Shown: positions 35,872 to 64,000 of the stretch, one piece after another | Numbering within the stretch: position 1 is the first letter of the stretch | Layout: each line of letters starts with the position of its first letter | Assembly: GCA_012295275.1 (NCBI GenBank) | Contig: CM022672.1 | Span: forward strand, 28,625,972 to 28,689,971 | Direction: 5' to 3' | Source: Chrysomallon squamiferum | Lineage: Eukaryota; Mollusca; Gastropoda; Neomphalida; Peltospiridae | Length of the DNA: 64,000 nucleotides | Notes under the pieces: generated by a model | What the model was told of the DNA's origin: nothing | Databases searched by the model: none | The model's input: only the letters and a program-made list of their open reading frames with translations | Program-made: the position numbers and the translations under genes

Positions 35872-36652
35872 ATGGATAAACAGTATTCTGTGAAATTTTT
35901 CACATCATTTGTTGAAGCAATACAAAAACTGTGCCGTGAATATTTAGACTTTGAGCAGGGTGTTGAATTGAGTGGTTACCTGGCTGTAGAAATAGACAAT
36001 TTCAAAAAGGAAAGATATGTGCTTAGTGAACTTGTTCAAAGTACTGGAAATGTTATTAGTGAGAGTTATTGCACAAAAGCTTTCAAAACACTGAGAAAAG
36101 AAATACCACCAAGAATATCAAGAGACAGTGAAAACATTACACCTAGAAAGAATAATTACAGTGTAATTCACAAACCACATAGACCACCAAAACCTGCAGA
36201 AGTTACTATTGATTTACGAGACAGCCCTGAAAGAGAGATGCCTTCTAGTTCTCCTCGTTACCAACACACTCCAAGAGGCCAATCAGTAGCAAGCCCTATG
36301 AGATGGCAAAATCGTACACCAACTACTCCAAGTCCAAATAGAATAAATAATAGATTTCCATCATCTTATGGAACCCCGCCCAGAATGAGAAGCATGGAAG
36401 TTGTAAGATCACCAAGAACCTCTCGATCAGTTAATACAGGACAGCCATCTAATCAAATCCAGCCAAGACGCATTGAACAGACATCTTTGCAGTCATGGAC
36501 TCCACCACGTATTACATCTGTTAAGTCACTTCGCAGTCCTCAGCATAATGCAGTTGTTCCGTCAAGTCCTAATCAGTCTGTAGCCGCTAGTGTTCCTAAA
36601 AAGAGAACCTCTGAATCCTCTGACTCTGTTTCATCACCTTCAGCCAAAAAAG
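35872..36652 (+). CDS. Shared N-terminal exon of a multi-cassette putative transcription regulator
   Basis: The ATG at 35872 follows an acceptor at 35839/35840. The exon encodes 260 codons plus one base and leaves at AAAAAG/GTAATT in phase 1. Reading through the donor would give only three more residues before a stop. Residues 1-80 look like a compact domain: a helix around SFVEAIQKLCREYLDF, then strands around GVELSGYLAVEID and ERYVLSELVQSTGNVISESY. It is not a recognisable BTB domain, although its position equals that of the BTB in lola-type genes. Residues 85-260 are Pro/Ser/Thr/Arg-rich with many SP and TP pairs (TPPRMRS, RSPRTSR), probably disordered and phosphorylated. I do not recognise the family. 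The spliced mRNA would attach this part to any of the downstream terminal exons. Confidence 0.85.
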
Positions 36653-36811
36653 GTAATTTTTAGTATTCTTAGAATTTTGGAATACATTTTTAAATTTTAA
36701 ATTATTTTTTTACCTCTTTCTTTTCATGGATTTAATTTGTTTGATTTTTATAATCTCCTTAGATAATTGCAATTGAAATAAAGGAATACGCTTTTTTTCA
36801 CATCCTTTCAG

Positions 36812-37242
36812 ATAAACTTGATGAGAATTTGGAGGCATTAATTGATCTAGCTAATATGGCCAAAGAAATTAGTAGTGAGGCACAAACAGAGACAAAAACA
36901 GATAATTCAGTAACAGAAACTTCAACAGTGACAACTGCAGCAGTTTCAGCATCTACTACAACAGCATCACAAAACCAACAAACATCTTCATCTGAAACTG
37001 TTGTCACACAAAACATCATTAGTGTGTCGTCATCTGAAGTGAAGAAAGAACAAGAAACAAATGATCCAGTTCTTGTTATTGACAATGCCAATGAAGGGGA
37101 GATCAGTTCTGGAAGTGATAGTACTTTTAATATTAATCAGTGTCTTGAATCATTCACTCCATTGATTACAACAGACTCGGCTTCATTTTCTACAGAACAA
37201 CAATCCACACCAAGTACATCATTTGAAGGGACAGCAGTACAG
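36812..37242 (+). CDS. Second shared exon, Ser/Thr-rich acidic linker
   Basis: It enters in phase 1, joining G to AT to make Asp, and continues KLDENLEALIDLANMAKEI. It then has a long Ser/Thr/Glu-rich stretch ending in FEGTAVQ. It leaves exactly in phase 0 at CAG/GTATGT. Together with the preceding exon it makes a 404-residue common region. Reading past the donor gives VCVL and a stop, so an intron-retained short form is possible. The phase 0 exit is what every downstream cassette acceptor matches. The only feature seen in the linker is a likely helix at its start. Confidence 0.85.
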
Positions 37243-38476
37243 GTATGTGTTTTGTAATTACAAGTTCATATGTGAGGCTTTTAAAAAAAGGACATCGTAG
37301 TAATTACTAAAACAAAACAAATTTAAAATTTAAATTTAAATTAATTTCCTTTTATTAGTATCCATACCATATAAAAATTAAAAACGGATTAATCATTTTT
37401 GATATGGTTTAAAATGGAGAAAAGTGTTTACATAAACATGTAAAATTGCTAGTAGCCACTTAAAAATAATTGTCCTCTTTTTTTAAGAGCCTTATGTTTG
37501 TATTTTTAAAAAAATGAACTGTTTTGTAGTTAAATGTTTCCTTGATCAGACCATGCATTTCAGTCAGTTTTAGTGACAATAGCCAGGTAATGCCAAGCTT
37601 CCCAATTGTTTGTGACCAATCTTTAATGCTGGTATTATTACACCACATTACAAAAATAATTATTTCAGATCACTTTTCTTCATGTAAATAATCAATTATT
37701 GTACATTGCTTTTGGCCAGAACATTTTCAAAACTTGTGCATTGCATTGAAAAAAAAAGAAGAGAGAGGTCACTACTAGTTGTATGATATCTGCAGACAAA
37801 CAATTTTGACAAAAAAGTTACTTTTAATATTTACTTTATAACAAAATTTGCTATCAGTAATACATGTCTATATACTTACATTTATTTTGAAATAATTTAA
37901 ATTAGATATCTGGGTTGATAAAATGCTGAAAAGATACGAATAACAGTAAGAGATAGAACCAGTATATTATATATTTTCTGAAAGGTGTAAAATTTTATTA
38001 TAATTTAACTTATTTAATTGGAAGCATCAAATATCAGGAATAGAAATATCATGAATTATTACTTGATGTTATCAATTTATTAAATGTTTACTGATGCATA
38101 TATGGATATACCTTTTTTTTTTTAATGACTACTTCACATGTGACATAATGATTAATTTGATATTAAAATTGCTCAGGAAATATTATCGATTATGGAACAA
38201 TAAAAATAACTGCTGATAAAAACCTATCAAAAATGAAATATATGTTGCTTACCTTATTATCAACATTCAGCTCTAGTTGTGGAGAAGTTCTTACAAAAAC
38301 ATGAGTTGACATCTAAATCCTGTTCGTTTCAGGGCAGATAGTAGCCCAAATATCTTTTGGTGGAGAACAGCTTAGATGGACATTTGAGTGGATATTGCTG
38401 GTTGTCTACCTGTATAATTGTTTTGGATGATCTTTGCCAACAGTACAATTGGCAACAATTTTAGTTTGCTTTTCAG
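37243..38476 (+). other. Intron before the first candidate 3' cassette
   Basis: AT-rich. The last part (about 38318-38461) is the left arm of an inverted repeat described separately. No gene was recognised. Confidence 0.7.
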
Positions 38477-39245
38477 TCATTTTTGAGTTCAAGTAAAATG
38501 TACCGTGCAAATCATATAAATGCTCACTACAAGAAGACACCTGAGACCCCTATCATAAAATCACCAACTGGGAAATCTTCGGACATGTTTGAATCCACAT
38601 CAGTTGTGATGTATAATGGTCAGCTGATAACGTGTCATCAGTGTGCCAGTACAAGGGATAGTTTCAATACATAGTACAGGAACAATGGTTATTGGACAGT
38701 ACAGGATATCAGATACACATAAATTAATGGTATATTAACAGTTTGATTTCATTGCCTAAATTGCATGGAACAAATTAATTCATCTGCTGATTTTTTTCAA
38801 ATAATTTTGCTTTGATCAAACAATTGCATATGCCTATCCTGTCTTTCTTTGTAATCATGAAGAGAAGTAGTACAGGCTGCTAAATTGTGTGCCCAGTACA
38901 TGAAGGTTGAAACTTAAAAGAACAAGAAAACTGAGATACGTGTGCATACGTATACATAGTATATATTTTCAGATATTTCTTTAGTGTTTAACTGCATGTG
39001 AAAGTACTTTCTGTGGTTTTAGCAAACTTGAAAATTACTGTCCTAAAGGAATGTAAAGCCAAAATTACTGTTAAATAATTTTAACAGGTAGGTTTATTGC
39101 CAACTGTGCAGTTGGCAAAGATTAGCCTAAAACAATAGACCTATCTCTGACCGACAATCTGCATTATCCATCCAAATGTCCTTCTGAGCTGTTTTCCACC
39201 AGAGAGGATACTCAGTTTAGACAGATAGCAGGCAATTAAACAGTT
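38318..39245. repeat. Foldback inverted repeat surrounding a candidate exon
   Basis: The left arm (about 38318-38461) matches the reverse complement of the right arm (about 39086-39245). Shared blocks include GGTGGARAACAGCT, GGACATTTG and GATCTTTGCCAAC (allowing mismatches). A near-perfect palindrome, TTGCCAACTG-TG-CAGTTGGCAA, lies at 39097-39118. Its diverged counterpart is near 38436-38456. This may be an old non-autonomous DNA transposon. Confidence 0.6.
38477..38674 (+). CDS. Candidate alternative 3' exon 1 (KTP-rich, CHQC end)
   Basis: A TTTTCAG acceptor is followed in phase 0 by 65 codons and TAG. The product has a basic, Pro/Thr-rich stretch (YKKTPETPIIKSPTGKSS) and ends GQLITCHQCASTRDSFNT. 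The Cys-x2-Cys is not enough to name a zinc finger. It fits the phase rule of the other cassettes but lies inside an inverted repeat and has no recognised domain. It could be a real terminal exon, an exonised transposon, or chance. Confidence 0.45.
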   Translation, partial: SFLSSSKMYRANHINAHYKKTPETPIIKSPTGKSSDMFESTSVVMYNGQLITCHQCASTRDSFNT

Positions 39246-39741
39246 CCAGGTTACAAGGTAATGTTTGTATATTGTTTGAGCCAGTTAAAGTCCTTTCATT
39301 TTTATTTTATTTTATTTTATTTTTTTTGCTACCAGTGGAAAATTCCTGTCTGTAAATCCAAGTAGCAAGTTTTGAGATAAAACATTTGTTTCATATGAAA
39401 GCAAAACTCAACAATTAATATTTGTTTAAATTTGCTGGCAATGTAGCTCACTTTTATTTATACCATTATGAAGATTTGATACAGATACTACAGATTTAAA
39501 CACACACAGTGAGGTAGTAAATCTGAGCTAATAAAGTTAGATAAAATTGGTAAAGAACTACAAAAACAGGATAGCAAGAAAAACAAAAACAAAGTTAATT
39601 ATTGGTTCTTTCATTCTTATAATAGAATTATTATACACATAATCATTTCTTTTGACTAGATGCTTTGAAGTTGCTATAATTTTGTGACTTACAAGTTGCT
39701 TAATGTGAAATTTCACCAGCATTGACAATAGAAATGATTAT

Positions 39742-40104
39742 GGGTCATTCCATGTCAAATCACCCCAAATAAAAATAAATTTAAACCCGACCGTCTCAGA
39801 TTTTTATAAAACTTGGTATACTTGTTGACTGGGATCCAGTCGGACCAGTGGTGTGGGAGATATGGCCCACCAAATTTTGATATTTTTGATAAAAATGGGT
39901 GTGACCACCAACCTTTGAACCCTCATATCTCAGGAACTACTGGGCCAATCTTCATAAAATTGGTACTGTTGAAAAGGCAATATGACAAGGATTGCAAATC
40001 TGCCATTTGGTGCTGTGGGATCCCAGTCAACAAGTATACCAAGTTTGATAAAAATCTGAGATGGTCAGGTTTAACCCATTGGGTGATTTGACATGGAATG
40101 ACCC
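39742..40104. mobile_element. Palindromic MITE (long terminal inverted repeats)
   Basis: It begins GGGTCATTCCATGTCAAATC and ends with the exact reverse complement of that sequence, over 24 bases. The similarity continues inward: TCAGATTTTTATAAAACTTG and GTATACTTGTTGACTGGGAT near 39796-39836 pair with 40013-40066. The whole element can therefore fold back. Open frames across it are artefacts of the repeat. A lone end of the same family lies at 44755-44779. Confidence 0.85.
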
Positions 40105-40489
40105 GTATCCAAAATGAAATACCAACAGAAATTATTTGCAAAGACACCAATAATTTAATTGCTGATTTATTGTCTGTTGTTGTTTATTTATTTTTTAGCT
40201 ATATAAAGCTGAAACCATGCATTTCTGTGTTTTCATTATTTGGCTCAAAAAATGTAAACCCTCCCCCCAACAAGATTCATACATGAAATTTTCAGTGAAA
40301 ACTAGATTAATTTCAGTTTGTTGAAGATATGTTTTATTCTGCTGAATAAGGATTGTAGAATAAAAAAAGTTACATTTTTATTATTAATATTTAATTGATT
40401 ACCTAAAGTTTATATAATTCTTAGCAGTATTCCAAAAGGATACCCAATCATTATCTGCAGGTAGTCCAATTCACTGAAAAATAAGTTTC

Positions 40490-41580
40490 TTTCACTTTCT
40501 GCTGCTGAAATGGATTATAATATCAACATTTGTCTTTTCTTTTATTTAGGAACAAAAATATGCATTATACTTCTTGCTTCAGTTTTAGTGTTAAGGGGAT
40601 ATGTTTGTCAAAATCTTTATTTCTTATGTTACAGAATTGAAATTTGGAGATAATCCCCTTTTGTTAATGAGTACTATTTTATTTTTTATGACAAATGGAT
40701 ACTTTCTTTTTAGATTTAAAAAAACAACATTATTGTACCCCATTTCATGAACCTGTCCAGTCCAAGCAGATATATATATCATATCATTCAAACTGCTGGT
40801 GTTCATCATACACTTGTATTTCTACAAAATAACCGAAATTGGTCTTTGTTTACATACTTCAAAAGAAATTAATTAAAAAAAAAAAAAGATTTTCATTAAT
40901 TTTTGGAAACAATAGAAAGTTGTGTAAAGTTTATATGAAAAGGAAAGTTAATTTTTCAAAAATTTTCTTTCCGTCATTTTGTAGTGTTTGTTTTTAAATA
41001 TATATATTCCAAATTTGGAAACTCTAGCACAAATAGTTAGGAAGGTAGAAAAAAGGATAGATGATAACAAAGACAAATCAAGTTTTATAAACCATATTTC
41101 CATTTGTTATGCTATAGGGGTGATGTTACGCATCATTATTATGTAATTTACACCTGCTTTTGCAAAACACCTGAAACATTTTCTGAAAAAGTAAATTTTT
41201 TCCATTTAAACAATCTAAGTTACAAAAAGAAAGTCAAGAAATATATTTGGATATATTAACTGCACAATAAAACATAGATGTGTCTGGAATGTGATTCTGA
41301 AGTTGACAACAATTACTTAGCTAATGGGAGAAGAATTGTTTGAACTAGTATTAATTTTCTCCACAGAATAGTAGTAATAATAAAATGGACAATAACAAGT
41401 ACATCTGACTGTTCACATTCCACTTATTTTCAGCTATTAGTAAGCACTTTGAAATTAATTCTTCACAACAGATTCTTGAATGCATACCTGAAAAGTTCAA
41501 AATCAAAATACAACTAACAAATTACAAATGATAGTATATGTGTCTGATTTACTGTTAGATAATAACATTTCTGGATTGAA
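40490..41580 (+). repeat. Dispersed repeat, copy 2 (relative at about 12000-12450)
   Basis: It carries the same ordered motifs as the copy in the long GPSM2 intron: GCTGAAATGGATTATAA, AAAAAGAAAGTCAAG, ACTAACAAATTACAAATG and ACTGTTAGATAATAACATTT. It contains more sequence between them. Element class is unknown. Confidence 0.55.
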
Positions 41581-43029
41581 ACTGTGCTTTAGTTCAACTG
41601 TCTGTTATTGTCTTTACTCACTAAAACTGTGAAGCAGATCCATATGATAGTTTTTACTATGTAGTGAGTTTTTGGTTATATCTACACAAGACATTTTTGG
41701 ACCTGTCTCATATTTGGAGATTGTATCATCAAGCAGATTATAGTGATCATTGGCAGAAATATTACAGGTCCTCCTTTTTTAATATTGCATCCTCAGCCTT
41801 CATGCAGTAGCAGTAAAAGACATCTCAGGATACAGTCACAGTCATTTGTTAATTAATCAAGTTAAAGTTCATTATGAATGGCTAAAAATTACTCGTGTCA
41901 TATTACTAAAAAGTAATTTTTTTTTGTTCTGTTCTGTTTAAAACAAATTTAAAAAATTGAAAAGTTTTAAATTTGGTTTTATATGGTTTTGGAAAGTGTT
42001 AAAATTTATTCTGTCAAAAAAATGTCCATTTTTATTTGTTATTTTTTATTATTATTAAAAAACAAATTAAAGTATTAAGATAATATAACTTTTATCAAGC
42101 TAGACCATCCCTTAAGACATTCATCAATAGGTAACTAATACCTATATTAACACTAAGTAACTTTGAGGGAAATATGACAGAAACAGTATGGTTACTTATA
42201 TTAGTAATGATATCATAACTTGAAAAGATTTATCATACTGCAGTATATTTGATATCATTCTTAAAAAAACAGATACAAAAACAGGTAATTACAGGTGAGA
42301 AAAGGAAAAGATATTCAGTCAGATAATGATTTGAATGAGAAAAAAACTTTAGCATTAGTACAAATACAGATGTATTTACAGGTAATAAATCCTTAACAAG
42401 ATTGAACAGCTTTTGTGTGTGTGTCCATATTACTGTTACTGACTTTATATATATTGAATATTTAGTGTTTGTTTTTCCTTGTTAACCAATGTATCGAGAA
42501 AAAGTTATCAAACATAGTTACATCTATATGTCATGAAGTGAACAGGTTAGTCAATACACAGGTAAATACCTAGTTCACTTCCATTTGTATACTTTGGTAT
42601 AGTCTTTGTCACAAGTCACTGTTGTCTTTATTCTTTTGATTGGTGCTTCACGATGATTGTGTCGTAGTCCTTGTGTTTTTTCAGACATGTGACATACAAT
42701 CGATTGTTGGCAAAGGATTATTTCCATCAAGACAAATCATGTTCAGCTTGTCTTATTGAATGCTTTTGTGTGTGATGGGTTGCCATTATTTGCTATGGTG
42801 ACTTCCTTTTAAAACAATAACAAGTACCATTATCATTTGTCTAACCTGCAGTTTACATTCTTCCAGTTGACTCCATTAATGAATTCTGCTGCCAAGTTAC
42901 TTTAATTTTGTCAAGACTGGTGTGCTTTATAGTGATTTCAAATTTATGTGTTTTTTATTTTGATTTGGCAAGATTATTGGAACAGTGCAATTGTGATTAC
43001 ACTTTATTGTATTAAGCCAGTCGTGGGAA

Positions 43030-43175
43030 AGTGGCAGTCTCCTAGAGGCAGTGCAGGAAGGATGAGATAGTCTTGTATCATGCTTGTTCATTTATCCTGA
43101 AGAAGATCATCCACCACAGTGTGAATATTGCCATATTATCTTCAGCAGTTTAAGAAAAATATATTTAGTCAAATA
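43030..43175 (+). pseudogene. Possible relic C2H2 zinc-finger cassette
   Basis: One frame reads HPPQCEYCHIIFSSLRKIYL and then VK-stop, the first half of a C2H2 finger. The preceding stretch reads RQCRKDEIVLYHAC in another frame, similar to the second half of a finger. Stops and a frameshift separate them. It lies just upstream of the intact zinc-finger cassette, which suggests a dead duplicate. The evidence is short. Confidence 0.4.
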
Positions 43176-43805
43176 AAGTTGATGAAATCATTATGATTCC
43201 ATCCTGAACATATTTTAAAAAATTTGATGGTGACAAAATTTACTATAAATTTTAATTTAATTAAAGTGTGTTACTTTTATTTTGATACAGCTGTTTTGTT
43301 GTGTGCTTTAATTAATTCATGAATTTTTCTAAATAAAATCATTACCATTTTTTTAATATTTTTTTTTTTTTATCTACCTTTGGTTTGACACCCAGTAGCC
43401 AATTTTGAGTTAGGTAATTTAATTATTAATTTAAAAAAAAAAAAAATTCAAAGGCTGCAGTGAAGTTTTTACTTTATATATGATGCATTAATATTTTTAA
43501 TTTTTAATAGATGTATAAACAAACATTGATAAGTTACAGTATGTACTTAAATATTTACTTTTTATCATTTTTTTTTATTTGATGCATAACCCATCAGATT
43601 TATTATAAATAGTGCCTCATAGATCATACCTGGAAGTTTTTAAAAGTTTCTTATTTGTAATTTAACCCTTTAAAGGAAAGGATGTTAGCCATTTAGTTTT
43701 GGATTTGTTATTTGAAATTAAAGCCATCGTTTTAAAACAGGTAATGGAAATCAAAGATTAGTGTTACAAGCTTAAATTCTAAGCTTTCCTGTTTAATCTT
43801 TGTAG

Positions 43806-44168
43806 ATGGATCAGTCACACACTGGAATTCAAAATGAATCACTGATATCCAAAGATGTCATCAAATGGTCTTTAGAGACTTTAAAGCCTGTGCAGAAGGA
43901 GCTGTTTTTATGTGATTCTTGTGGTCGGTCATTTATTAACAAGAGTGGCTTGAACAGTCACTGGCACTCAACACATGCAAACAAAGAGCGATATACTTGC
44001 CACATATGTTTATCAACATTCATTCAATATGCAAGTTACCAAGATCATTTTAATCTCCACAAGAATATTCGACCCTATAAATGTTCAAAATGTGGTAAAG
44101 CTTTTTTCAACAAGGGACCTTTGACAGCTCATGTAAAAACCTGTGGTACAGCAATCAGTAGACCATAA
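43806..44168 (+). CDS. Alternative 3' exon: three C2H2-type zinc fingers
   Basis: A TTTGTAG acceptor is followed in phase 0 by 120 codons and TAA. Finger 1 (LCDSCGRSF onward) is C-x2-C-x12-H-x4-H. Finger 2 (CHICLSTF onward) is C-x2-C-x12-H-x3-H. Finger 3 (CSKCGKAFFNKGPLTAHVKTC) is C-x2-C-x12-H-x3-C. The exon starts MDQSHTGIQNE, but the ATG is read as an internal Met if spliced. The isoform would be 524 residues with a C-terminal sequence-specific DNA-binding region. A stand-alone zinc-finger gene is possible, but the acceptor, phase and strand match the shared exons. Confidence 0.82.
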   Translation: MDQSHTGIQNESLISKDVIKWSLETLKPVQKELFLCDSCGRSFINKSGLNSHWHSTHANKERYTCHICLSTFIQYASYQDHFNLHKNIRPYKCSKCGKAFFNKGPLTAHVKTCGTAISRP

Positions 44169-45986: not shown

Positions 45987-46729
45987 ATGGGCACCAATCA
46001 GACCATGAAGCAGGCACCTATGTTATCTGCTTTAAGTGAGGACAGTGAGGCAGCCAGGCCAACAAGTAATATTTGTTACCTTTGTAAGAAATCATTTTCT
46101 ACGCAGTTAGAACTAGAGAAACATTCTACTTGAAATCACAGCTTACGCTGCCCCCATTGTCCTTTAATTTTTATATGAACATTAGATTTAGAAAATCATC
46201 TTGCTCAGGAGCCTCAGCACAACTGTCATGTTGACAAAAAAATGTGGATTTGATTTTGTTAGTGATACAGATAAGAGAAAATGAAGTGAAGGTCCACAAC
46301 ATTTATAGCGTCATCTTGCCTAAAACAAAGAACAGGGGCCATGTACTAGAGAATATTAATAATGAAGATTTGTTAACTTGTTGTGATTGTAACATGATTT
46401 TCTTTTCTCAGAATGGTCTTTTACTTCATGAACAAAAGTGTAGAAGTGCTTCTAATTACTTTATTTGTCCTACTTATGGTTTCTGCTGTGGTGACAAAAA
46501 GACATTATCTGATCATATTAAAATTATTCACAAGAAAGTGGTGTACCTGTGTAATATATGTGGTGCAAAGTACAGCTGGAGCACTGGTCTTGCAAAACAC
46601 AAAAAAACATCATTTCAAAACATAGTATTAAGAATTTTGGCCTTTATTGATCTTTATAGCCCAAACAAAATACCACATTTATTACTGAGACAACCTACTT
46701 TATTAACATTTAAAGTTCTTAGTATATAA
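45987..46729 (+). pseudogene. Decayed C2H2 zinc-finger cassette
   Basis: A good acceptor (CCATTTCAG) opens a phase 0 frame starting MGTNQTMKQAPM, with a finger (CYLCKKSFSTQLELEKH) broken by TGA at 46131. A second finger start (CPHCPLIF) is broken by TGA at 46176, and the frame closes at 46251. The homologous frame then shifts (46244-46729) with three more finger-like units. One is CCDCNMIFFSQNGLLLHEQKC. The next has CPTY where the second Cys should be. The last, CNICGAKYSWSTGLAKH, lacks its second His. The exon therefore probably once coded about five fingers. It now has stops, a frameshift and lost ligands while keeping its acceptor. Confidence 0.75.
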
Positions 46730-47245: not shown

Positions 47246-47557
47246 ATGGAGATGAGCCGCAATGATCAGGATAGATGGGGACTGAAGATGAAAACAAGAA
47301 TTGGTACAGGAAAACATAATGTATATTTCACAAGGCCAATTTTGCAATCAAAGACACCATGTGTGTGTAAAATATGTGGCAAGCGGTTTTCATTTGTGAG
47401 ATACCTGAAGGATCATTTAAAAATGCGTCATGCCTCAGATGATACACTTCCATACGCTTGTCAATGTGGGAGACAGTTTAGATACAGAGCTGCATTAGCC
47501 AAACATCGTACTAAGGAATGTCCAGTTAATACACTAAATTCTTTTAAGATAAGATGA
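47246..47557 (+). CDS. Alternative 3' exon: two zinc fingers, the second C-x1-C
   Basis: A GTTCTAG acceptor is followed in phase 0 by 103 codons and TGA. After a basic lead (MKTRIGTGKHN), finger 1 (CKICGKRFSFVRYLKDH onward) is C-x2-C-x12-H-x4-H. Finger 2 (ACQCGRQFRYRAALAKHRTKEC) is C-x1-C-x12-H-x4-C, with one residue fewer between the cysteines than usual. A two-finger end with an atypical second finger is also the common layout in lola isoforms. The predicted isoform has 507 residues. Confidence 0.82.
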   Translation: MEMSRNDQDRWGLKMKTRIGTGKHNVYFTRPILQSKTPCVCKICGKRFSFVRYLKDHLKMRHASDDTLPYACQCGRQFRYRAALAKHRTKECPVNTLNSFKIR

Positions 47558-47682
47558 AGAAAAAAAACAACTCAGTAACAAGTATAATATATAAACATTT
47601 TGTTAGAAAAGTGGCCAGTCCTATTAAACAACACTTGCTGATACTGCTGGACATGCTCAACAGTTTTTATCTTTGATTTCAG

Positions 47683-47841
47683 CTTTGGCCAAGGCAAAGA
47701 TACAAACAGTACACAGAGGATGATATCAGAAAGGCCATTCAGCTGGTTCAACAGAAAAAGTTGAGTGTTTTGAAAGCTAGCATTATCTGCAGAGTTCCAC
47801 GTGAGACGCTGAGAATTAGACTTAAATCATTGCAACAGTGA
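47683..47841 (+). CDS. Alternative 3' exon: pipsqueak-type helix-turn-helix (copy 1)
   Basis: A TTGATTTCAG acceptor is followed in phase 0 by 52 codons and TGA. The product starts LWPRQRYKQYTEDDIRKAIQ, then LVQQKKLSVLKAS and VPRETLRIRLK. This matches the HTH_psq fold: helix 1 DIRKAIQLV, helix 2 SVLKASIIC and recognition helix RETLRIRL. There is no usable start Met, so it is only meaningful as a spliced 3' exon. An AATAAA at 47903-47908 could end the transcript. The predicted isoform has 456 residues. Confidence 0.85.
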   Translation, partial: LWPRQRYKQYTEDDIRKAIQLVQQKKLSVLKASIICRVPRETLRIRLKSLQQ

Positions 47842-49094: not shown

Positions 49095-50997
49095 CAGGGG
49101 TGGCCAAACTTTTTTACCAGAGGGCCAAATTTGCAACTTTCTTGCCACTGGAGGGCTGGATTAAATGAAATTTACGTAAAATTTGTCGTAACTGGTTGCC
49201 ATCTTTATTAAAATATATATTATTGTAGTAGAATAACAATAAATAACACCATCTTGTTTACACTTGTATTTAATAAAAGGTTTATATATCAATGAGATAA
49301 ATGCAACTGTCCACAATTTTGAACAAGCCTTTTAAAGTCTGGAGTAAAACTAGTTGTCGAAACTTTCATAATTGCTTGTAAATTTGCATCTGACAATACT
49401 GATCTGTTTTTTGACTTTGTTCGATTTAAGCATGAAAAAGTCTGTTCACAAATATAAGTTGATCCAAATATACACAGCATCCTAGCAGCAAAACCTCGTA
49501 GATTGATAAACTTTTCAGCAGGCAAATATTTGAAAAATTCTGCCAACGGCATATTCCTAAACTTTATTTTCAGCTCATTATTAGCTTGTAGATCTATTAG
49601 TTCCAGCTGAAGAACATCAGGGGCTGTCTCAATTTCTGTACTGAAGGGTGAAACAAGTATATTAAATGATGAATCCATTACTCTGAAGTCTGAAAATCTT
49701 CTTTGGAATTCTTGTTTCAAGATGCAGAGTTGATTGCTGTATTTTTCAGCAAGTTTACTATCTACTGTTGCCTTCCTTAGCAAAGAAAAATGAATAAAAT
49801 TACATTCTGATATCTGTTTGGCAAAAAGTGAGAGCTTTGCCTCAGAAGCTTTTACTTTGGTGTACATATCATGCACAAATAATCCTTTTCCTTGCAATTC
49901 CAAATTTAGAGAATTGAGCTTTTCAAACATTTCAGTGGCAAACATAAAATCACAAAGCCAGTAATCATTTTTCATCTTCTCTATAAAATCACATTTCATT
50001 TGTTTGATATCAAGGAAAAGGAGAATTTCATCTCTTAGTTCAAAGACTCTTCTTAGAACTTTCCCATGACTAAGCCACCGAACACTATTGTGATATAGCA
50101 CATCTTTATATTCAGTCTCAATATCATCCAGTAATGTCTTGAATTGTCTGTGTGATAATGGTCTGGATCTGAATAGATTAACTACTTCAACTACAGGACG
50201 TATCACATGATTAAAATCCAGAGCTGACTTGCATAAACTTTCTTGATGAATGATACAATGAAATTTCCATATTTCATGCTGAGGACAGTTTTCTTTAATC
50301 TTCTTTTTTGTAGGAGGCTAATCATGCCTTTGTTTTTCCAGTTAGAGCAGGTGCACCGTCAGTAGTGATACTCACCAATTTATTCCACGGCAGGCCAGCC
50401 TCCTCCACACACTTTATTACACATTTACACAGGTCTTCCCCCGTAGTTGTGCCTTTTAAAGGTTCAACTGATAACAACTCCTCTGAAATTGTAAAATCTG
50501 ACTTGATACCACGTATAAATATCATGAGTTGTGCAATGTCCTGAACATCATTGCTTTCATCCAGAGCTAATGAAAACCACATGAAATCAGTGCAAGCAGT
50601 GTGAAGCTGTTGGGACAAATCTTTGCTGATATCTTGTACCCTTCTCATAACTGTATTCCTTGATAGTGCAATATTCTCAAATTTATTCTGTGCTTCTGGA
50701 CAAAGTATGCGTGCCGCATCCACAATGCAGTCTTTTACAAATTCTCAATCAGAAAAATGTTAGCTACTTACGTCATGGTTGGCAGACTGTTCTAAAAATA
50801 ACGCTGCAAGGGCATTTATTCTAAAAATAACAACGCTTGCCACAAGCTACTGCTAGTAGCAGCCAGCGCTGTTGCACTGCTTGTTCACAGTGGTAAATAT
50901 GGTGCTTGGAAAAAAACAAGGCAAGGTGTTTGGCGGGCCGGATGAAACAGGACTGGGGGCCGGATGCGGCCCGCGGGCCGTAGTTTGGCCACCACTG
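49095..50997 (-). mobile_element. hAT DNA transposon with inverted ends and 8-bp duplication
   Basis: The left end (CAGGGGTGGCCAAACT) matches the reverse complement of the right end (CAGTGGTGGCCAAACT) at 15 of 16 bases. The flanks are AGCTATAT (49087-49094) and ATCTATAT (50998-51005), an 8-bp duplication with one change, as hAT elements make. The right end is unusually GC-rich for the window (GGCCGGATGCGGCCCGCGG). The few differences between flanks suggest a moderately recent insertion. Confidence 0.92.
49289..50723 (-). pseudogene. hAT transposase, disrupted (ZBED5/GTF2IRD2-like group)
   Basis: Two frames on the minus strand belong to one protein. The frame at 50322-50723 holds the N-terminal RNase H-like part with WFSLALDESNDVQDIAQLMI and SITTDGAPALTGK. 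The frame at 49289-50206 holds the remainder (VRWLSHGKVLRRVFELRDEI) and ends in the hAT dimerisation region (FGSTYICEQTFSCLNRTKSK). Between them (about 50207-50321) the sequence reads through stops where the zinc-ligand and insertion-domain start should be. The N-terminal BED finger is not intact. It cannot make a whole transposase. The group is named from recognised motifs only. Confidence 0.88.
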
Positions 50998-53727: not shown

Positions 53728-53910
53728 TCTTGGCCATTGTCAAGGCGGCGGTCTTCTTACCTGCAGTACACAGCACAAGACCTGAGGAAGGCCATTCAGT
53801 TAGTGGAGCAGAGAAAGATGACTGTGTCTAATGCAGCCAAAAAATTCAGAATTCCATTGAGAACATTGTATTTCCGGATTCAGCAGTCAAAACAACAGTA
53901 CTCTAGATAG
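53728..53910 (+). CDS. Alternative 3' exon: pipsqueak-type helix-turn-helix (copy 2)
   Basis: A CCTTTCAG acceptor is followed in phase 0 by 60 codons and TAG. The product begins SWPLSRRRSSYLQYTAQDLR and continues KAIQLVEQRKMTVSNAAKKF, then IPLRTLYFRIQ. It aligns along its length with the cassette at 47683-47841 (W-P start, RKAIQLV-Q-K--V), so the two are duplicates that diverged in the recognition helix. A nearby AATAAA is at 53948-53953. The predicted isoform has 464 residues. The usual three-helix HTH_psq pattern is complete. Confidence 0.87.
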   Translation, partial: SWPLSRRRSSYLQYTAQDLRKAIQLVEQRKMTVSNAAKKFRIPLRTLYFRIQQSKQQYSR

Positions 53911-55042: not shown

Positions 55043-55483
55043 GTGTCTCAGTCTGATAGTAGGTATGATTTGGGGGCTCCAGATTTTCCACTGTCAGCTC
55101 AGGTTTTGGATACTTCTCTGCAAAACAGTAGAAAAGAAGAGACTGAGTCTGTCCAGCAGTTTGATACACATCCATCTAACTTGCAAAATACAAATCCAGA
55201 AACTGTTTTATTGACAAGAGGACGGACAGTTCTCAGTGTTGTAGAAGAAAGTCAGCTGGTGCAGTTAATCAAAGAACGAATAGAAAATGAAGGCAGGCTG
55301 AGTAGATCTGAAGTGCTACGATTAGCTTCAGAATTTGCAGTGAGTTTAAAGAGACGAGAAACAACACATGGATTTAGCAGACAGTGGTATTACAGTTTCT
55401 TAGAAAGATGGCCTGACCTACAGCAGATGCTTAATGTCACTAAATGGACAGGAGACCTAAGACTGCAGAGAGATGCAAAGTAA
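55043..55483 (+). CDS. Alternative 3' exon: CENP-B/Tc5-type helix-turn-helix (copy 1)
   Basis: A phase 0 entry is followed by 146 codons and TAA. Residues 1-60 are a Ser/Gln-rich lead. Residues 61-126 (RTVLSVVEESQLVQLIKERI onward, through LSRSEVLRLASEFA and FSRQWYYSFLERWPDL) match the CENP-B-type HTH of Tigger/CENP-B proteins. Conserved features include R-x-E-V-L-x-L-A, the W-Y-Y-x-F and the R-W-P ending. It lacks any DDE nuclease domain, so it is not a transposase copy. The predicted isoform has 550 residues. Part of its 3' end is duplicated at 61115-61276. Confidence 0.85.
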   Translation: MSQSDSRYDLGAPDFPLSAQVLDTSLQNSRKEETESVQQFDTHPSNLQNTNPETVLLTRGRTVLSVVEESQLVQLIKERIENEGRLSRSEVLRLASEFAVSLKRRETTHGFSRQWYYSFLERWPDLQQMLNVTKWTGDLRLQRDAK

Positions 55484-56798: not shown

Positions 56799-57176
56799 AT
56801 GCCTCAGCTGACACCTGAATTGTCTAACAATCATCCTGTCAAAGGATCTGGAACACAAAATAGCTTAGAAGAGAGTCATACTCCACCGGTCAGTCAGGAT
56901 GGACAACAAAGTTTTAATCAGACATGGGCAACAGTGGCTGAACGTGGCCGACCACCAGTGTTAACCAGTCAACAGGAAGCTGAGCTTGTGGAAGTTTTCA
57001 AATCTCATGCAGCAAAAGGTCATTTGGTTTCACGGGTAGAAGTGTTACAAATTGCATCTGAGTTTGCTACCAGTGTTGGTAAACGTGATGGTGCCAAATG
57101 TTTGAGTGTACAGTGGTACTACAATTTCATGAAACGTTGGCCAGAAGTAAAACAATTTTTTCAAAAACCCAATTAA
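56799..57176 (+). CDS. Alternative 3' exon: CENP-B/Tc5-type helix-turn-helix (copy 2)
   Basis: A GATTCTACAG acceptor is followed in phase 0 by 125 codons and TAA. A Ser/Gln/Pro-rich lead precedes residues 50-117 with GRPPVLTSQQEAELVEVFKS, SRVEVLQIASEFA and LSVQWYYNFMKRWPEV. It is parallel to the cassette at 55043-55483 in layout and key positions (EVL-IASEFA, WYY-F-RWP). The region just before the third helix (GKRDGAK) differs most. The predicted isoform has 529 residues. Confidence 0.85.
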   Translation: MPQLTPELSNNHPVKGSGTQNSLEESHTPPVSQDGQQSFNQTWATVAERGRPPVLTSQQEAELVEVFKSHAAKGHLVSRVEVLQIASEFATSVGKRDGAKCLSVQWYYNFMKRWPEVKQFFQKPN

Positions 57177-58297
57177 TAACAAAATAACGTGTTTAATAAG
57201 CAAGGATATTTTTCTCAAAAAAAGTGCCAGTGCACTCTTTTTTTTGTATAAAAATGAAAACTGTTAAAAAAAACAAAGCAAACAAAAACCATTTTTATTG
57301 CATACTTAACAGAATTCAGTGTATTTGTGCAGTGTAGTATTGTGTTTATGGCTTTTAAATTTATATAGCATTTCAGTTCTTCAAAAGTTCATTTATTTAT
57401 CACAGAAAAGAATGTTTCAGATGTATTTATTTTTTCTTCCATAAAATGGAAACATTTATTGTAATCTTTAATTTTTAATTTTCTGTACTTTCATATACTT
57501 TTGGATGTTTAAATTTCAAATTACACGTTTCTTTATTTTTTCTTTGTAATTGTTTTTGTAGAAATGTGATGCAATTTCAAAACTGAGGTGTATCATCATT
57601 ATATATGTAGTGAATTATGAATTAGAAATTTGGCATGTAAATCAGTTAATTAACAAAAGTGGTATCAGTGTTATATCAGTGATTTCAGTATTATATTTAA
57701 GCATTGTTTTACAAGTTCTTACTTTCAAATATTTTTAGGCAGTATTTAATTATGTCAAATTAGACAATAAGACATATTCTTGTACTTAATAAATAACTGC
57801 TTGACAAACTCCCCAACAATTCATTACTTAATTTACATATTATATTCTCTAAATCAGTGAAGTTCATAAGATTACTGCAAAATGAAAATAGCTGAGTGAT
57901 CTAATAACCATTGTCCAGATATATAAATATTAAGGTATTTAATTCTCAGTTTTGGAATTTTAATTATGCAAAATTCAACAGTTTTCATGAGATTTTCAAA
58001 ACGGTTGAATCTGTAAAAACTGATTGTGAATTAACATGGTTTAAATGTTTCTCAAATTTACCCTTTTTATTTTATTTTATTTTCTGGTTTTTGTTATATA
58101 GACTTCCAGAAAAACGGCAGTTAAAAAGTTATTACTACAGGTAATTTGTAAACATAAAAAAGAGAAGGAATATCTTATTCTGTTTCTAGTTAAGTAAGCA
58201 GTAAATATTCTTCAAGAATGGAAATAATTTGTTATTTCACTTATCCTAGTTTTTAAAAAAAGATTGTTCTTTGGCATTTTACTTAAAAAGTCTAGAT
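57177..58297 (+). other. Inter-cassette DNA
   Basis: AT-rich with T runs. A short phase 0 frame after an acceptor near 58101 (TSRKTAVKKLLLQ) is basic, but too short and unlike the other cassettes to call. Confidence 0.6.
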
Positions 58298-59591
58298 CAG
58301 GGGTCACCAACTATTTTGAACATGACAGCTACTTCATAGGTACTGAGTCATATGAAGGGCTATTAGTTTGTTACTCTTCTGAAATAACAAATTTGTTCAG
58401 TTTATCTTTAGTTATATATTATTATTAATGATTTCTCACTATAATTATCACCAGTGACTTAACAAGGTTGGATACACATAATATTCAACCTTTAATTCTA
58501 CTGACCTCAATAATTGTTTAAATTTCAGATGATCAGTTCTACAACATTTAATAAGAAAAATGTAGCATTTTTGCTAACTACTGACAACCCCTATTAATAA
58601 ATCGTGAACTATGTTGCACCATCTTTGAAAAATGTACTCATTGTTTAATGTCCAAAAAAATCATTTTTCATATTTTTGAATAAATCTTACCACATTTTAT
58701 ACTTATGAACAAATCTGTGGCTTTTTTAACAAAATTATGTCTGTTACATTTCATAACACATTTTTGAATTAAACACAATTTTTTAATTTTTTAATACTAC
58801 TTTGTCATGGCACTGCCATATTTCCAGTGACAACATCTGGTGTTTGTTTCTTTGTTAATGGGAAGATTGGCATTGCTTGCTGTTCACCATTGTATTGTAC
58901 ACCATTGTATTGTAATCTGGTATGTAACTTGATTCTGAGTGAGTCTTGTAGATGTATGTGCATTGATAAGGTGTATTCTGTGTTTGTTTTTGATGAAGTT
59001 CATGCCAGAAAATGCTGATTTACAGAGATAGGTTGAACCAAAAAGGCTGGCAACCTTCATAGCTGCTGTGCACACACCACAGTACGTTTCTGTGTCAACA
59101 AGGCAGCAAAAGTTTGTGAGGCCTGGTAGGCTTTAAGGTGGAGGTCATTTTGCAGTGTTACAGTTTCAATCTCCACCTGTCCAGCATCCAAGTTAAATGT
59201 TGCACTCAGTTGCTTAGCAAGGTGTGTTAGGTGTTTTTTTAGGGGAGAAGCCACATTCAGCTCTCCATCTTCGTTTCATCTGCTTTTTTACTCACCATAA
59301 ATGCTGTATTTTTGTCATGCTAACAATAGACTTGAATAGGCCTGAGTTCACCTTAACTTAGTGAGACTTCATGTATAATATTAATATTTTTATTTATTTT
59401 ATTTTAAAGATATTGTTGTTTTCAAATTTATATAAATGCAACTGTGATTATTACAAAAGAATAAAAGCAGAATAAAATTAAATTTTAGATGCAACTCACT
59501 GTGTTGTGCTATTTTAATAACAGGCCTGCAGGTGACTCACGTGGTTCTTGGGGGCAACCTGTGCCCATGGTTACCGTGTTGGTGATCCCTA
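58298..59591 (-). mobile_element. Second hAT transposon remnant
   Basis: The left end CAGGGGTCACCAAC matches the reverse complement of the right end (TAGGGATCACCAAC). The flanks GTCTAGAT (58290-58297) and TTCTAGGT (59592-59599) agree at 6 of 8 bases, consistent with an old hAT duplication. On the minus strand, VASLFGSTYLCKSAFSGMNF and IKNKHRIHL (58884-59075) match the hAT C-terminal dimerisation region. The upstream frame at 59057-59254 (SPLKKHLTHLAKQLSATFNL) is likely from the same transposase. Most of the gene is lost. Confidence 0.8.
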
Positions 59592-61114
59592 TTCTAGGTC
59601 ATCATAAAATCCTATAAAGAAATGTAACAGTGTTTTTAAATATGAGAGAGGTGGTTTCAGTATTTCATTATTATTTTATGAATAATAATTTTTAATAATA
59701 CCTATTAAATTTATTGCCAAATAGCACTTTACTATTATTTCTTTTTAAGTTTGCACTAAGTTTCATGTGTTTAATATTCAATTTTTTTTTTTTTAAATCA
59801 TTTGTTTATAATTTTTTTTCTGTCGAATGTCCTGCCATATCAGTCTGGAGAAACCATAAAAACCAAAAAGATCAATGAGTAAATGTTGCGAGTTAGCAAA
59901 AGAAGCCAAAAACATTATGTTTTCTCTAGATTATATGTAATTTATTACTTATTATAAATTTAAAGTTAAAGGTATTGCCTAATTTGAAAGCATAAAACAA
60001 AAAAAAAAAAAAAAAAATTACTTGTAATTAAATGTTTTTGGATACGTTACTGTATGATGTATTAATGCAAATTTCAGTTAATGTGGCATAATTTTAGCAA
60101 TATGAATGCTATAGGCATCTTTTTCCAGAACTAATTAAAACTTTTTCTCAGAATCAGCGTATATGGCGAGTTCACAATATTTAGTAACTGAAAAAGAGAA
60201 GAACCCATCTTGAGAAATCATTTTGTAGTGTGGAGTTCATTACAAAATGTTTTTATAATTTCCTACTTAATATTCAGTTTAGTATGACAGATGACTAATT
60301 AACATAAAATGTATGTTTCATTTATTGTCTACTTTTCATAACCTAAACAAATAACCTACATACTTACATATATAATTATATACTTCCAAATGATTGATTA
60401 CTTTTGTTCTTGTACCAGTTTTAAGGAGATAGATGTTAAAATCCGTTATTACAGTAGCAGAAGTATTTGATTTAGATGAGGTTTTCTTGTATCAAAGACA
60501 TGGACATTTATTTATCAAATAGTTTGTGTTTGTTTGATGTTTTTTAAAGCTTTGCAGCATTTATGATGGTTGTACTTGCTAATCTTTAAATTGGAATATT
60601 TTAGATACGTTATCTAGTAAATAAACAGTTTGCATAAAATAAATTAGTTAGAATTTCTTAATGTTTTATGTAGGACTTTTAAAATTATATTCCTCTGTAC
60701 TGTACTTCATAAATAAAATGTGGCATATCCTACAGTGACAGTTCATTTCCTTATCAGGGATCAGATGATTCATAGATTGTCTGTAGTTAATATTATTATT
60801 ATTAGGTCACTTTGATAGTTCTTATATCTTTGTAATTTTATGATGTAAATGATTATTAAATAACCAAAAAATTTCATAGTAATATCAGAATATGTTTTTT
60901 TCTGTTTATCAAACAATCAACTGAAACCTGGCCATGCTGATACTAGAAAGCTCAGATATTACCTTGAAAACAGAGAAAAGAGGCTGATTACTGTTTTCTA
61001 CATGGAAACATCTGATACAGTTCACCTTGGAAGTGTTTAGTTTTTTTACTTGCAATACTCACTATACTGTTAACTAATGAATACCTTTACTTGCAGTGCT
61101 GAAACACCTATCCG
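59592..61114 (+). other. Inter-cassette DNA
   Basis: AT-rich with an A run near 60000-60017. An open plus-strand frame at about 60903-61020 has no phase 0 acceptor and is not called. No gene was recognised. Confidence 0.6.
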
Positions 61115-61276
61115 ATAGGAGACCTAAGACTGTAGAGAGATGCAAAGTAAAAACTGAAACTTGAAAATCTGGGGTTTTTTTTTAAATTTTAAATTATTTT
61201 TGTTTTTCTGTGTTAAATAGTTCTGAAGCACATTTACATTAATTTTATTTTCTGATGTCATACCACAAAACTATTC
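61115..61276 (+). pseudogene. Duplicated tail of the CENP-B-type cassette (from 55448-55608)
   Basis: GGAGACCTAAGACTG, AGAGAGATGCAAAGTAAAAA and the following 3' flank (GAAGCACATTTACATTAATT and beyond) repeat the end of the 55043 exon and its downstream DNA. In the copy, a CAG codon has become TAG, so the coding part is only about ten codons with a stop. It is directly joined to an inverted copy of 56352-56475. Confidence 0.9.
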
Positions 61277-61400
61277 CACTTTAGAAATAAGCAAATTAAA
61301 AACCCCTCAAACTGTATTACTGGTTTTAACAATGCTGAAAATACAAAAATAATTGGTTTTGATTCTTCCTTTATGGATGTAACAGATGGTTGTATAAATA
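61277..61400 (-). repeat. Inverted copy of 56352-56475
   Basis: AGAAATAAGCAAATTAAAAA and CCCCTCAAACT, then AATGCTGAAAATACAAAAAT and ATGGATGTAACAGATGGTTG, are the reverse complement of the inter-cassette DNA between the two CENP-B-type exons. Similarity begins at the base where the direct copy of 55448-55608 stops. Confidence 0.9.
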
Positions 61401-61868
61401 TTAGCAAAATAAGCTCTCCCGATTAGCAAATACTGAGAATGCTGAAAAGTTACATATTTTGCCATATGTTTAGGTGGTTAAATAACTGCTGTAGAAATTC
61501 TGTTTTTATTGGAAACAAATTCATTTGATGCAATTAAAGCTGTAACCTTTCAACTAGTGTGGTAGGCATTGAACTGGACTGAATATGTGATTCAGTATCT
61601 CAAAGATTTTGCTTGAATCATGTATGCTAAATAGATATTAAACAGTTTAATTATGTTAACTGTAATTATTTCTTTAATTAAAAATAATATGACATCTACA
61701 AATAACTGTATCATTGGTGGAACTTGGATATTACTTTTTATTGTTCTGTACTCAGATTTAGGTTCACACAAAAAAACCCACGTTATTACCATTTTAATAT
61801 TACCATGTAGATAAATTCCTTGCAATATTTCATCCAACGAAAATTAATTTGGTCTCTCTTCATTTCAG

Positions 61869-62030
61869 TTTTTATGGCAGCATCAACTTCCATCCAAGTT
61901 TCCACAAAAATCAAGGGCACAAAAACAAAAAGAGTACAGAGAAAGACAAAAGTTAAAAGAGGGGTCTGACTTTCTATTAAGAGAAAGAATTAGAATCAGG
62001 AAATATGCAAAAAGAAGAAAAAACAATTAG
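61869..62030 (+). CDS. Alternative 3' exon: basic YRERR module (copy 1)
   Basis: A CTTCATTTCAG acceptor is followed in phase 0 by 53 codons and TAG. The product starts FLWQHQLPSKFPQKSRAQKQ and continues KEYRERQKLKEGSDFLLRER, then IRIRKYAKRRKNN. About 40% of its residues are Lys or Arg, predicted as helix with the repeated pattern R-x-x-x-x-K/R-E-Y-R-E-R and F-L-x-x-E-R-x-R. I recall similar REYRxR / ERxRxRKY strings in uncharacterised invertebrate proteins but no named domain. It could bind nucleic acid or act as a nuclear localisation module. AATAAA at 62198-62203 follows. The predicted isoform has 457 residues. Confidence 0.78.
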   Translation, partial: FLWQHQLPSKFPQKSRAQKQKEYRERQKLKEGSDFLLRERIRIRKYAKRRKNN

Positions 62031-63852
62031 CAGAACAGAATACCTAAGAGTCCATGTTGTTCAGTGGAACTGTCCTGCTCACCTGTGTATGGTACCTGAC
62101 TGTTTCAAATGCTGCTATCTTTTTAATTTACTTATTATTATTATTATTTTTTTTTTTTTTTTTTTTTAGTTTTTTTTTTTTTTTTTTTTATTTGTTTAAT
62201 AAAAATGGAATATATATGTTCAGAAATGTATCTGGATACTTAAAACATCCAAAATAACGAACATTTTTGGTGAATGACCGGAAAGGAAAGTGGCAAGATT
62301 ATCTTTCTATCAAAAGCAGTTTAATTTTTTTACTTTAGAAAAATCTATAATAGAACAATATATTCCCTGCAATGACAAGTACTAAACCCTTTACTAAAAA
62401 TAATTGTCATTCAGTTGTTATTTTGGAAGTGTCTTTGATTTACAATTTCAAGTGCAAATCTTTCATTATATTTCTGTGTATATTAACTGTTTTGTTGTGT
62501 CAAAAATAATATCACATTTGTTTTATTTTATTTACTTTGATATTTACATGTAACAGGCTTTCCAAATTATTGTCTTAAAGGAGTTTTCTACATACATTTT
62601 ATTGCTAAATATTTTATCTGTAAGTATTTACAATACACTTTTTACAGTTGATCAGAGATGAGACTGAATTATCTTGTGTTTTGAGATATAGTCAGATTAC
62701 TAATAAATCATTTGTATTTTCCATTCATTCACTTTTTGTTTTTAATAAATGTTTTCTTACAAATATTTGCAGAAATGTTCCTCCGCAGCAATATTGTTTT
62801 TGTTATCAATATTTCAGAAGATTCTGCTGGTGATATGTTGATATGAGTGTATTATTGATTTTCAAACTAGTTAACTTAATGTAAATTCATGTGTTAGTTA
62901 TGGTAACTTTTCACTACAACATCCATGCAATGTTTATTTCAGGGAGCATGTTTAATCATGATAACTTACCAAACATTTAAATGAAATTTGAGTACACAAA
63001 GTTTAAATTTTCAATTTGCTCTTTCCTTTGTATGACTGTATCTGTGTGTGTGTCTGTTACTAATTCAAGTGAGATCTATGCTATTGGATAAATATCTTAT
63101 TTACCAATTTTAATAAATAATGTACTCACTGTACTGTTAAATTAAAAAACAAAGTCAAAACAGACAGTGGTTTGGAAATCAGTTTTGATAACATGCTCAC
63201 ACAAATGCTATTTTTAGACATGTTGGGTAATAACATCTCTCAACCATTAATAATGATAGTAAACATTCTCAGAGTCACATGATCAGAACAGAAAATGCAA
63301 CATAATAAAATAGCCAGAAAGTATATTAACGTGTTTGTCACTCTAAATACCTATTTGATACTGTACACTATTATAGTAACAAAATTTGTGAAGACAGCTG
63401 TCTAAACTAAACATTGACATTTCTCTTGTTTGGATTAAATTACTCATTTAATTAAATCATTGCACAAGTGTATTTGTGCAAATTTGTAAATAGTGAATCA
63501 AGTTTTTCCTGTTAAGTTACAGTGATTATCAATATTTTTACATTTTGATACTGAAATGGCCCATACATTTTTGTCTTTGTGTGTGTTCTCTGAGAATAAT
63601 AATAAGTATTGCCTGTGTAACTATGTAATAATTATTTTTATCTAAAGACAACATTAATTCTGTTTTAAATAAAATTTTACTTCATACAGCAAAATCTAAT
63701 GTTGTTTATATTGAAATAAATAAAGAGAAACACGTTTTTAGCATTAAAATAAAGAGCTGAATGAAAAATAATAACATAATTGTACACTGATAAGTATTAA
63801 TAGACTGTGGGCATATTATATAACTTAAGATGATGACATGACTTCTTTTCAG
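62031..63852 (+). other. Inter-cassette DNA
   Basis: It holds a long T tract (about 62149-62189) and AT-rich sequence. An open frame after an acceptor at 62647 (62648-62833) is in phase 0 but has an AT-driven composition and no domain, so it is not called. Confidence 0.6.
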
Positions 63853-64000
63853 CATTTCCTGTGGAAAATGCACAAGACAAAATCTCGAGCACAAGTGCAG
63901 AGAGAATATAGAGAAAGAAGAAAGAGACGTGAAGGAGAGAATTTCTTGTTCAAAGAAAGAATGAGAATTCAAGCCTATCGTCGCAAAGCAAAGGAAGACT
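63853..64000 (+). CDS. Alternative 3' exon: basic YRERR module (copy 2, cut by window end)
   Basis: A CTTCTTTTCAG acceptor is followed in phase 0 by an open frame to the last base. The product reads HFLWKMHKTKSRAQVQREYR, ERRKRREGENFLFKERMRIQ and AYRRKAKED. It aligns with the cassette at 61869-62030 (F-L-W start, KSRAQ-Q-EYRER, EG-xFL-xER-RI). The stop is expected just beyond the window. More cassettes may follow. Confidence 0.78.

Follow-up and report, generated by a model that had tools for sequence, protein, structure and literature searches.

The downstream part of a 64,000-nucleotide (nt) stretch of the genome of the vent snail Chrysomallon squamiferum (GenBank assembly GCA_012295275.1, contig CM022672.1, positions 28,625,972 to 28,689,971 of the forward strand; the whole stretch is called "the window" below, and the contig C8) very probably holds a locus with alternative 3′-terminal exons that is built like Drosophila lola and belongs to a chromosome-confined family of such loci, whose N-terminus is unrelated to that of lola. 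The parts of this locus, their uniform phase, the recurrence of the arrangement in the genome and the conservation of two sister loci can be read from DNA sequence; for Gigantopelta aegis there are database gene models in which a single constant part is joined to many different tails. The single transcription unit proposed here would begin with two 5′ coding exons common to all transcripts, followed by a series of alternative 3′-terminal exons ("cassettes"), and we infer that in C. squamiferum the phase-0 donor at 37242 is spliced to one cassette at a time, so that each mRNA carries one of them, most likely by cis-splicing. A DNA-binding module, a stop codon and presumably a poly(A) site would come with each cassette, and one gene could therefore give eight or more proteins that are alike in their N-terminal half and differ in DNA specificity. 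Such proteins would presumably act as transcription factors, and their constant N-terminal domain would most likely serve in dimerisation or cofactor binding, as does the BTB domain in lola and mod(mdg4). The parts of the putative locus are as follows (lengths in amino acids, aa; HTH, helix-turn-helix; a slash marks an exon border).

35872–36652, + strand: shared coding exon 1, 781 nt, with ATG, conserved N-terminal domain of ~75 aa and linker; phase-1 donor AAAAAAG/GTAATT
36812–37242, + strand: shared coding exon 2, 431 nt; acceptor ttcag/ATAAAC, phase-0 donor GTACAG/GTATGT
38477–38674, + strand: doubtful cassette, 65 aa, phase 0, without known domain, within a possible inverted-repeat element
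43806–44168, + strand: cassette, 120 aa, three C2H2 fingers (Pfam), ATG first, phase-0 acceptor
45987–46729, + strand: broken C2H2 cassette with phase-0 acceptor and finger, in-frame stop at 46131–46133, and finger fragments in another frame further downstream
47246–47557, + strand: cassette, 103 aa, two C2H2-like fingers (Pfam), ATG first, phase-0 acceptor
47683–47841, + strand: cassette, 52 aa, pipsqueak (psq) HTH (Pfam), without Met, phase-0 acceptor
53728–53910, + strand: cassette, 60 aa, pipsqueak HTH (Pfam), phase-0 acceptor
55043–55483, + strand: cassette, 146 aa, CENP-B/Tc5-type HTH (Pfam, PF03221), phase-0 acceptor
56799–57176, + strand: cassette, 125 aa, CENP-B/Tc5-type HTH (Pfam, PF03221), ATG first, phase-0 acceptor
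61114–61278, + strand: relic, a decayed copy that takes in the 3′ end of 55043 and the DNA behind it (89% and 88% over two overlapping stretches)
61869–62030, + strand: cassette, 53 aa, basic module RAQKQKEYRERQK, without Met, phase-0 acceptor
63853–64038, + strand: cassette, 61 aa, basic module RAQVQREYRERRK, phase-0 acceptor; in-window part to 64000, stop 38 nt outside the window

When joined, the two shared exons encode 404 aa and end in phase 0, just as the original prediction, which was made from the sequence alone, had stated; the C-terminal sequence is EGTAVQ and the exon border CAG/GT. The KKDK encoded across their junction resembles G. aegis proteins (KKDK, KKDR and KKDT in P0003, P0006 and P0044). 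The eight intact cassettes, all on the + strand, comprise two each of the C2H2, psq, CENP-B/Tc5-type HTH and basic types, and every one of them, when joined to the shared part, gives an in-frame product of 456–550 aa with a single terminal stop. At least seven such cassettes with stops of their own had been predicted, and this part of the claim holds; one member of the predicted list, at 38477–38674, is doubtful as a cassette, as it lies between inverted-repeat arms (38412–38458 and 39094–39140) and has no Pfam match, and its best match among the fetched proteins has an expect value (E) of 0.2, which is not credible. Pfam DNA-binding domains score above their cut-offs in six of the eight intact cassettes: zf-C2H2 in 43806 and 47246 (44.9 and 29 bits, cut-off 25.2), HTH_psq in 47683 and 53728 (27.5 and 24.6 bits, cut-off 20.4) and HTH_Tnp_Tc5 in 55043 and 56799 (23.1 and 26.9 bits, cut-off 22.2). 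The basic modules of 61869 and 63853 (the in-window 49 aa of the latter) match no Pfam family and are 52% identical to each other over 48 aligned residues; the four kinds of content are those originally named. The cassettes were also said mostly to lack a usable start codon, and this was overstated: four of the eight have no Met upstream of the DNA-binding domain, but there is an ATG at the acceptor in three and a Met at residue 6 in one more. The G+C content of the cassettes is 0.32–0.44 against 0.30 regionally. Comparison of three paralogous pairs within the window gives synonymous differences (pS) of 0.73–1.0 and nonsynonymous differences (pN) of 0.33–0.48, rough values in that pS is near or at saturation.

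A common donor demands a common phase. For each cassette the best-scoring AG acceptor in its frame was located, with generic scoring weights of our own choosing. This acceptor is in phase 0 in all nine scored window cassettes (the eight intact ones and the broken 45987), in agreement with the phase-0 starts originally predicted, whereas the phases are random in control frames: 71/77/81 for the other + strand open frames of at least 50 codons in a 114-kb region (n = 229), and 59/44/63 for minus-strand frames outside the neighbouring array described below (n = 166). Acceptor strength alone proves little: the window cassettes score 2.1–8.1, but a best score of at least 2 is also reached in 104 of the 229 control frames. 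The test was partly non-blind in the window, where the cassettes came from the earlier list and from a scan restricted to phase-0 frames; the anchors in other loci came from phase-independent searches.

The genome search (404,604,130 bases in 22 contigs, of which C8 makes up 35.8 of 404.6 Mb) gave 24 matches to the first 87 residues of the shared part, all of them on C8; 23 are strong (E 3.9e-25 or better) and one is weak (E 9.7e-8). This recurrence on a single contig goes beyond the original prediction. HTH_psq matches at E 1e-3 number 29 genome-wide, which is a lower bound because the list misses both psq cassettes of the window; 24 of the matches lie on C8, where they form six clusters of two or more. 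A same-strand copy of the shared domain lies upstream of five of the six clusters (703077, 15587570, 24118122, 27506866 and, by position only, 28988326), and the sixth (11.148 Mb), with two psq domains within a 527-aa frame, is apparently a different kind of gene. The first four psq-cluster regions with an upstream shared-domain copy are called loci A–D here, and with the window they make up the five of the 24 matches whose arrays were read. All four, like the window, head similar cassette arrays, with best acceptors in phase 0 in 9 of 9, 8 of 9, 3 of 3 and 4 of 4 cassettes, respectively (24 of 25 together); the single off-phase anchor, in locus B, has a poor acceptor score. In the six cassettes scanned from loci A and C, psq is above cut-off in all six and HTH_Tnp_Tc5 also in two, while a third HTH_Tnp_Tc5 match is just below cut-off (21.2 of 22.2) and a fourth is weak (13.5). 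The psq and Tc5 types stand in separate exons in the window, which in our reading gives the impression that a two-part module of the CENP-B/pogo type has come apart. Another copy of the shared domain, 96% identical to that of the window, lies about 89 kb downstream (C8:28750751–28751002, + strand) and is probably a recent duplicate locus.

The window's array apparently ends near 64.04 kb, as the next + strand finger exon (65696) is off-phase and the finger exons that follow, from 67.4 kb onwards, are on the minus strand. The latter belong to a convergent array of 23 short C2H2 exons on the minus strand (window coordinates 67400–96423; C8:28.693–28.722 Mb), 21 of which are in phase 2, a phase other than that of the window's donor; two deviate. 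A shared exon should then lie upstream of this array on its own strand, and the genome search did show a shared-domain copy there (C8:28735080–28735328, minus strand, 88% identical), which is the probable shared exon of this array. A related copy at C8:685679 (minus strand) has a phase-2 donor, AATCA/GTAAGT, at the point where its G. aegis relatives diverge. Phase is thus uniform within an array and different from one array to the next, which is what a single donor for all the exons of an array would impose. The intact two-finger + strand exon at 65696–65909 has its best acceptor, a strong one, at 65696; the phase there is 2, as in the minus-strand array, and the exon would not suit the window donor. 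It may be a stranded or dead inverted copy, or a candidate for trans-splicing. Two exons of the minus-strand array (68406–68622 and 72650–72866) are 97% identical in protein sequence, and this pair is a recent duplication.

Gene models of G. aegis join homologous parts in the manner proposed. A word-based protein search with the shared domain (146 candidates) gave 105 proteins at E 1e-3 or better, of which 86 are from G. aegis, 12 are unnamed ENA readings and seven are from Haliotis; all 86 G. aegis proteins are listed on one contig of 91,665,651 bases. When grouped by identical first 150 residues, 81 of the 105 form 13 groups of 2–19 members, all of them G. aegis RefSeq proteins, and the members of each group have 284–385 residues in common and then split directly after K, Q or E, as expected from a common donor with AG before GT. 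Their tails carry C2H2, psq and BEN domains (the last in P0022, 24 bits, cut-off 23.2) and, in P0018 and P0045, DUF3504; by our own reading the tails of P0016 and P0074 carry basic stretches. In one group a BEN-bearing stretch is common to seven of the nine tails and is followed by a second split.

In a midpoint-rooted tree, which has some long branches elsewhere, two G. aegis loci are orthologous to locus B (support 100/100) and locus D (100/99); exon 1 of the window groups with P0001 (100/99), and four other copies group with G. aegis or ENA proteins. The homologous second shared exons of loci B and D end with CAG/GTAAAT and AAG/GTATTT at residues 317 and 314, respectively, and these are the residues at which the G. 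aegis isoforms diverge. Seven of eight G. aegis tails match six locus B exons with 50–76% identity, and all nine tails of the other locus match three locus D exons with 60–98% identity (16 of 17 tails together). These matches extend over the whole tail or a part of it; in locus D they are limited to the common first 87–90 residues for the seven BEN tails, and cover 73 of 117 and 51 of 96 residues for P0019 and P0020. The leftover eighth tail, P0092, has its best match in locus D, not B. The lola and mod(mdg4) architecture originally claimed is supported by the uniform phase, by the same-strand shared copy above five of six psq clusters and by the coincidence, in two loci, of the divergence residue with a homologous donor. 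The search of related genomes that had been proposed for the same array was fruitful for these sister loci; it did not recover isoforms of the window's own locus, for which P0001 contains exon 1 only. A part of one published account (PMC7736800) gives ~66.3 million years for a split involving G. aegis, here taken to be its separation from C. squamiferum. One locus D exon stands apart (C8:27522917–27523186): it is 96–98% identical in protein sequence to G. aegis over 87–90 aa, far above other cassettes, and its BEN score alone is 14.3 (cut-off 23.2), while the homologous G. aegis stretch precedes a second set of alternative ends.

No Pfam family reaches its cut-off in the shared domain itself, where the sole match, to DUF713, has E 0.1 and is too weak, and no BTB model was matched in that scan, in keeping with the different shared domain in an apparent lophotrochozoan that was originally predicted; the DNA is indeed from a vent snail. 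In a profile search of PDB the best 60 of 90 matches all fall in the zinc-finger part of the alignment. An AlphaFold model of the N-terminal domain is all-helical, with four helices, at a low-confidence predicted local distance difference test (pLDDT) value of 56. In viral contigs a pattern was matched in 12 stretches, none of which (0 of 12) encodes a relative.

Insects provide close parallels in architecture. A portion of PMC11426971 gives 20 isoforms for lola, 17 of them with C2H2 ends, and its title terms the TTK-type BTB Arthropoda-specific; for mod(mdg4), text in PMC4667647 describes at least 31 isoforms with a common BTB 5′ exon and mostly FLYWCH 3′ regions, some of them encoded on the opposite strand. 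Like lola, the window locus has a constant 5′ part with a putative N-terminal interaction domain and one of many 3′ ends, which are mostly C2H2 in lola; it differs in its shared domain, which matches no BTB model, and in the psq, CENP-B/Tc5 HTH and basic modules that are added to the C2H2 type. Lola is moreover a single locus, whereas the snail shared domain has 24 matches on one contig. With mod(mdg4) of flies and moths it shares a common 5′ exon and many variable 3′ exons, but BTB was not found in the shared domain, no FLYWCH domain was found in the seven cassettes scanned with Pfam or in the in-window part of 63853, and, in contrast to mod(mdg4), no antisense cassette was observed whose phase agrees with that of the window's donor. 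To judge from these comparisons, the locus is like lola and mod(mdg4) in anatomy and is not a member of those families by descent. G. aegis loci such as LOC121383526, LOC121383032 and LOC121384041 (the first two being orthologous to loci B and D) have both the shared domain and the architecture, although in RefSeq their isoforms are named individually as assorted zinc-finger or uncharacterised proteins. In Haliotis the N-terminal domain is 67–77% identical over 81–96% of the query in seven proteins, and a further search added five more; the difference is that DUF3504 is present in 11 of these 12 proteins with the shared domain (the twelfth, P0111, lists no domain). DUF3504 is described, in a section of PMC3212892, as a Crypton-derived recombinase domain. 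As a hypothesis, the shared-domain family may descend from a domesticated gene of Crypton type, and the Haliotis-type DUF3504 protein is possibly its ancestral form.

Several observations weigh against the interpretation of the window as a lola-like locus. The window locus is known here from its DNA alone. P0001, the orthologue of the window locus, reads exon 1 only, and G. aegis isoforms of this locus were not found among the 105 proteins; a protein search with linker plus cassette returned only P0001, and this is uninformative on absence, as its 8000 candidates were probably filled by low-complexity words. Among the fetched tails there is no close match to any window cassette: identity is at best 36% for cassette 43806 and 40–42% for those of psq type, and at E 1e-3 the Tc5-type and basic cassettes, two of each, match nothing there. 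RefSeq isoforms are computed models, though alternative models in RefSeq are usually based on transcript alignments. The distances from stop codon to poly(A) signal (38–893 nt) are not clearly different from background (median 211). Contigs C7 and C12 bear psq pairs but no copy of the shared domain, so psq exons also exist outside the family. The model of the N-terminal domain has the low confidence given above, and independent starts are possible for the half of the intact cassettes that have an ATG at or near the acceptor.

This last point raises the question of whether each cassette might be a small gene in its own right, with a promoter and start of its own, that just happens to follow an unrelated gene. 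The ATG at the acceptor of three of the eight intact cassettes, the Met at residue 6 of another and some gaps of more than 4 kb between cassettes would fit such an arrangement, but a phase that is uniform in each array, differs between arrays and is random in the controls would not; half of the cassettes have no Met ahead of the domain, and G. aegis models join homologous sister-locus exons to a shared part. Separate genes are thus very improbable. The constant exons and some cassettes might instead be transcribed separately and joined by trans-splicing in the manner of mod(mdg4), perhaps even between loci of the same phase. Trans-splicing is known for both mod(mdg4) and lola, according to parts of PMC4667647 and PMC11426971, and + strand exon 65696, just outside the window, is in the phase of the minus-strand array and not in that of the window donor. 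That exon may, however, be a stranded or dead inverted copy, and all the intact window cassettes lie downstream of the donor, on its strand and in its phase, so that cis-splicing suffices; we consider trans-splicing very improbable here. Least probable of all, and extremely so, is that the cluster is decaying or derived from transposons and now has no function. The broken cassette, the relic and the hAT-like remains within the array would fit such a state, but eight cassettes are intact and in frame, their paralogues are less changed at nonsynonymous than at synonymous sites, and the sister locus D contains an exon that is 96–98% protein-identical to G. aegis.

The lola-like interpretation, if true, would have consequences beyond this locus. 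No insect loci that combine a single interaction domain with many DNA-binding ends are better documented than lola and mod(mdg4), and an independent molluscan origin on an unrelated domain would make the architecture convergent. With its 24 copies on a single contig, the shared domain offers a replicate set, both for the control of terminal-exon choice and for the ways in which DNA-binding modules, including those of transposon type, are recruited. The scattered RefSeq names (myoneurin-like, ZBTB17-like, EGR1-like and others) would be explained as isoforms of one family. A bolder picture, which we regard as unlikely, is that ~23 loci on one vent-snail chromosome combine a single snail-specific interaction domain, possibly derived from a Crypton-derived DUF3504 gene, with hundreds of interchangeable exons for DNA binding (C2H2, psq, CENP-B-like, BEN and basic), some of transposon type, and that loci of the same phase may even share cassettes in trans, which exon 65696, inverted and in phase 2, would require. 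No account of the shared-domain family is among the matches listed in the open-licence PMC literature, and in a term search of three vent-snail genome papers "zinc finger" occurs 0 (PMC7142155), 1 (PMC7895826, for ZFHX4) and 0 (PMC7736800) times.

Some other features lie within or near the array. On the minus strand, 49289–50744 contains the remains of a hAT-like transposase, with a PF05699 dimerisation region (E 4.5e-6) in frame 49289–50317, which is adjoined by frame 50322–50744. A 57-nt inverted repeat at 39781–40074, with arms that are 95% complementary and 180 nt apart, is probably a small mobile element. Scans of the window for Rfam families and tRNAs were empty. Upstream of the locus, two tetratricopeptide repeat (TPR) stretches are present on the + strand at 1989–2366 (below Pfam cut-offs) and 23562–23930 (above), which we take to be possibly exons of one GPSM2/LGN-type gene.

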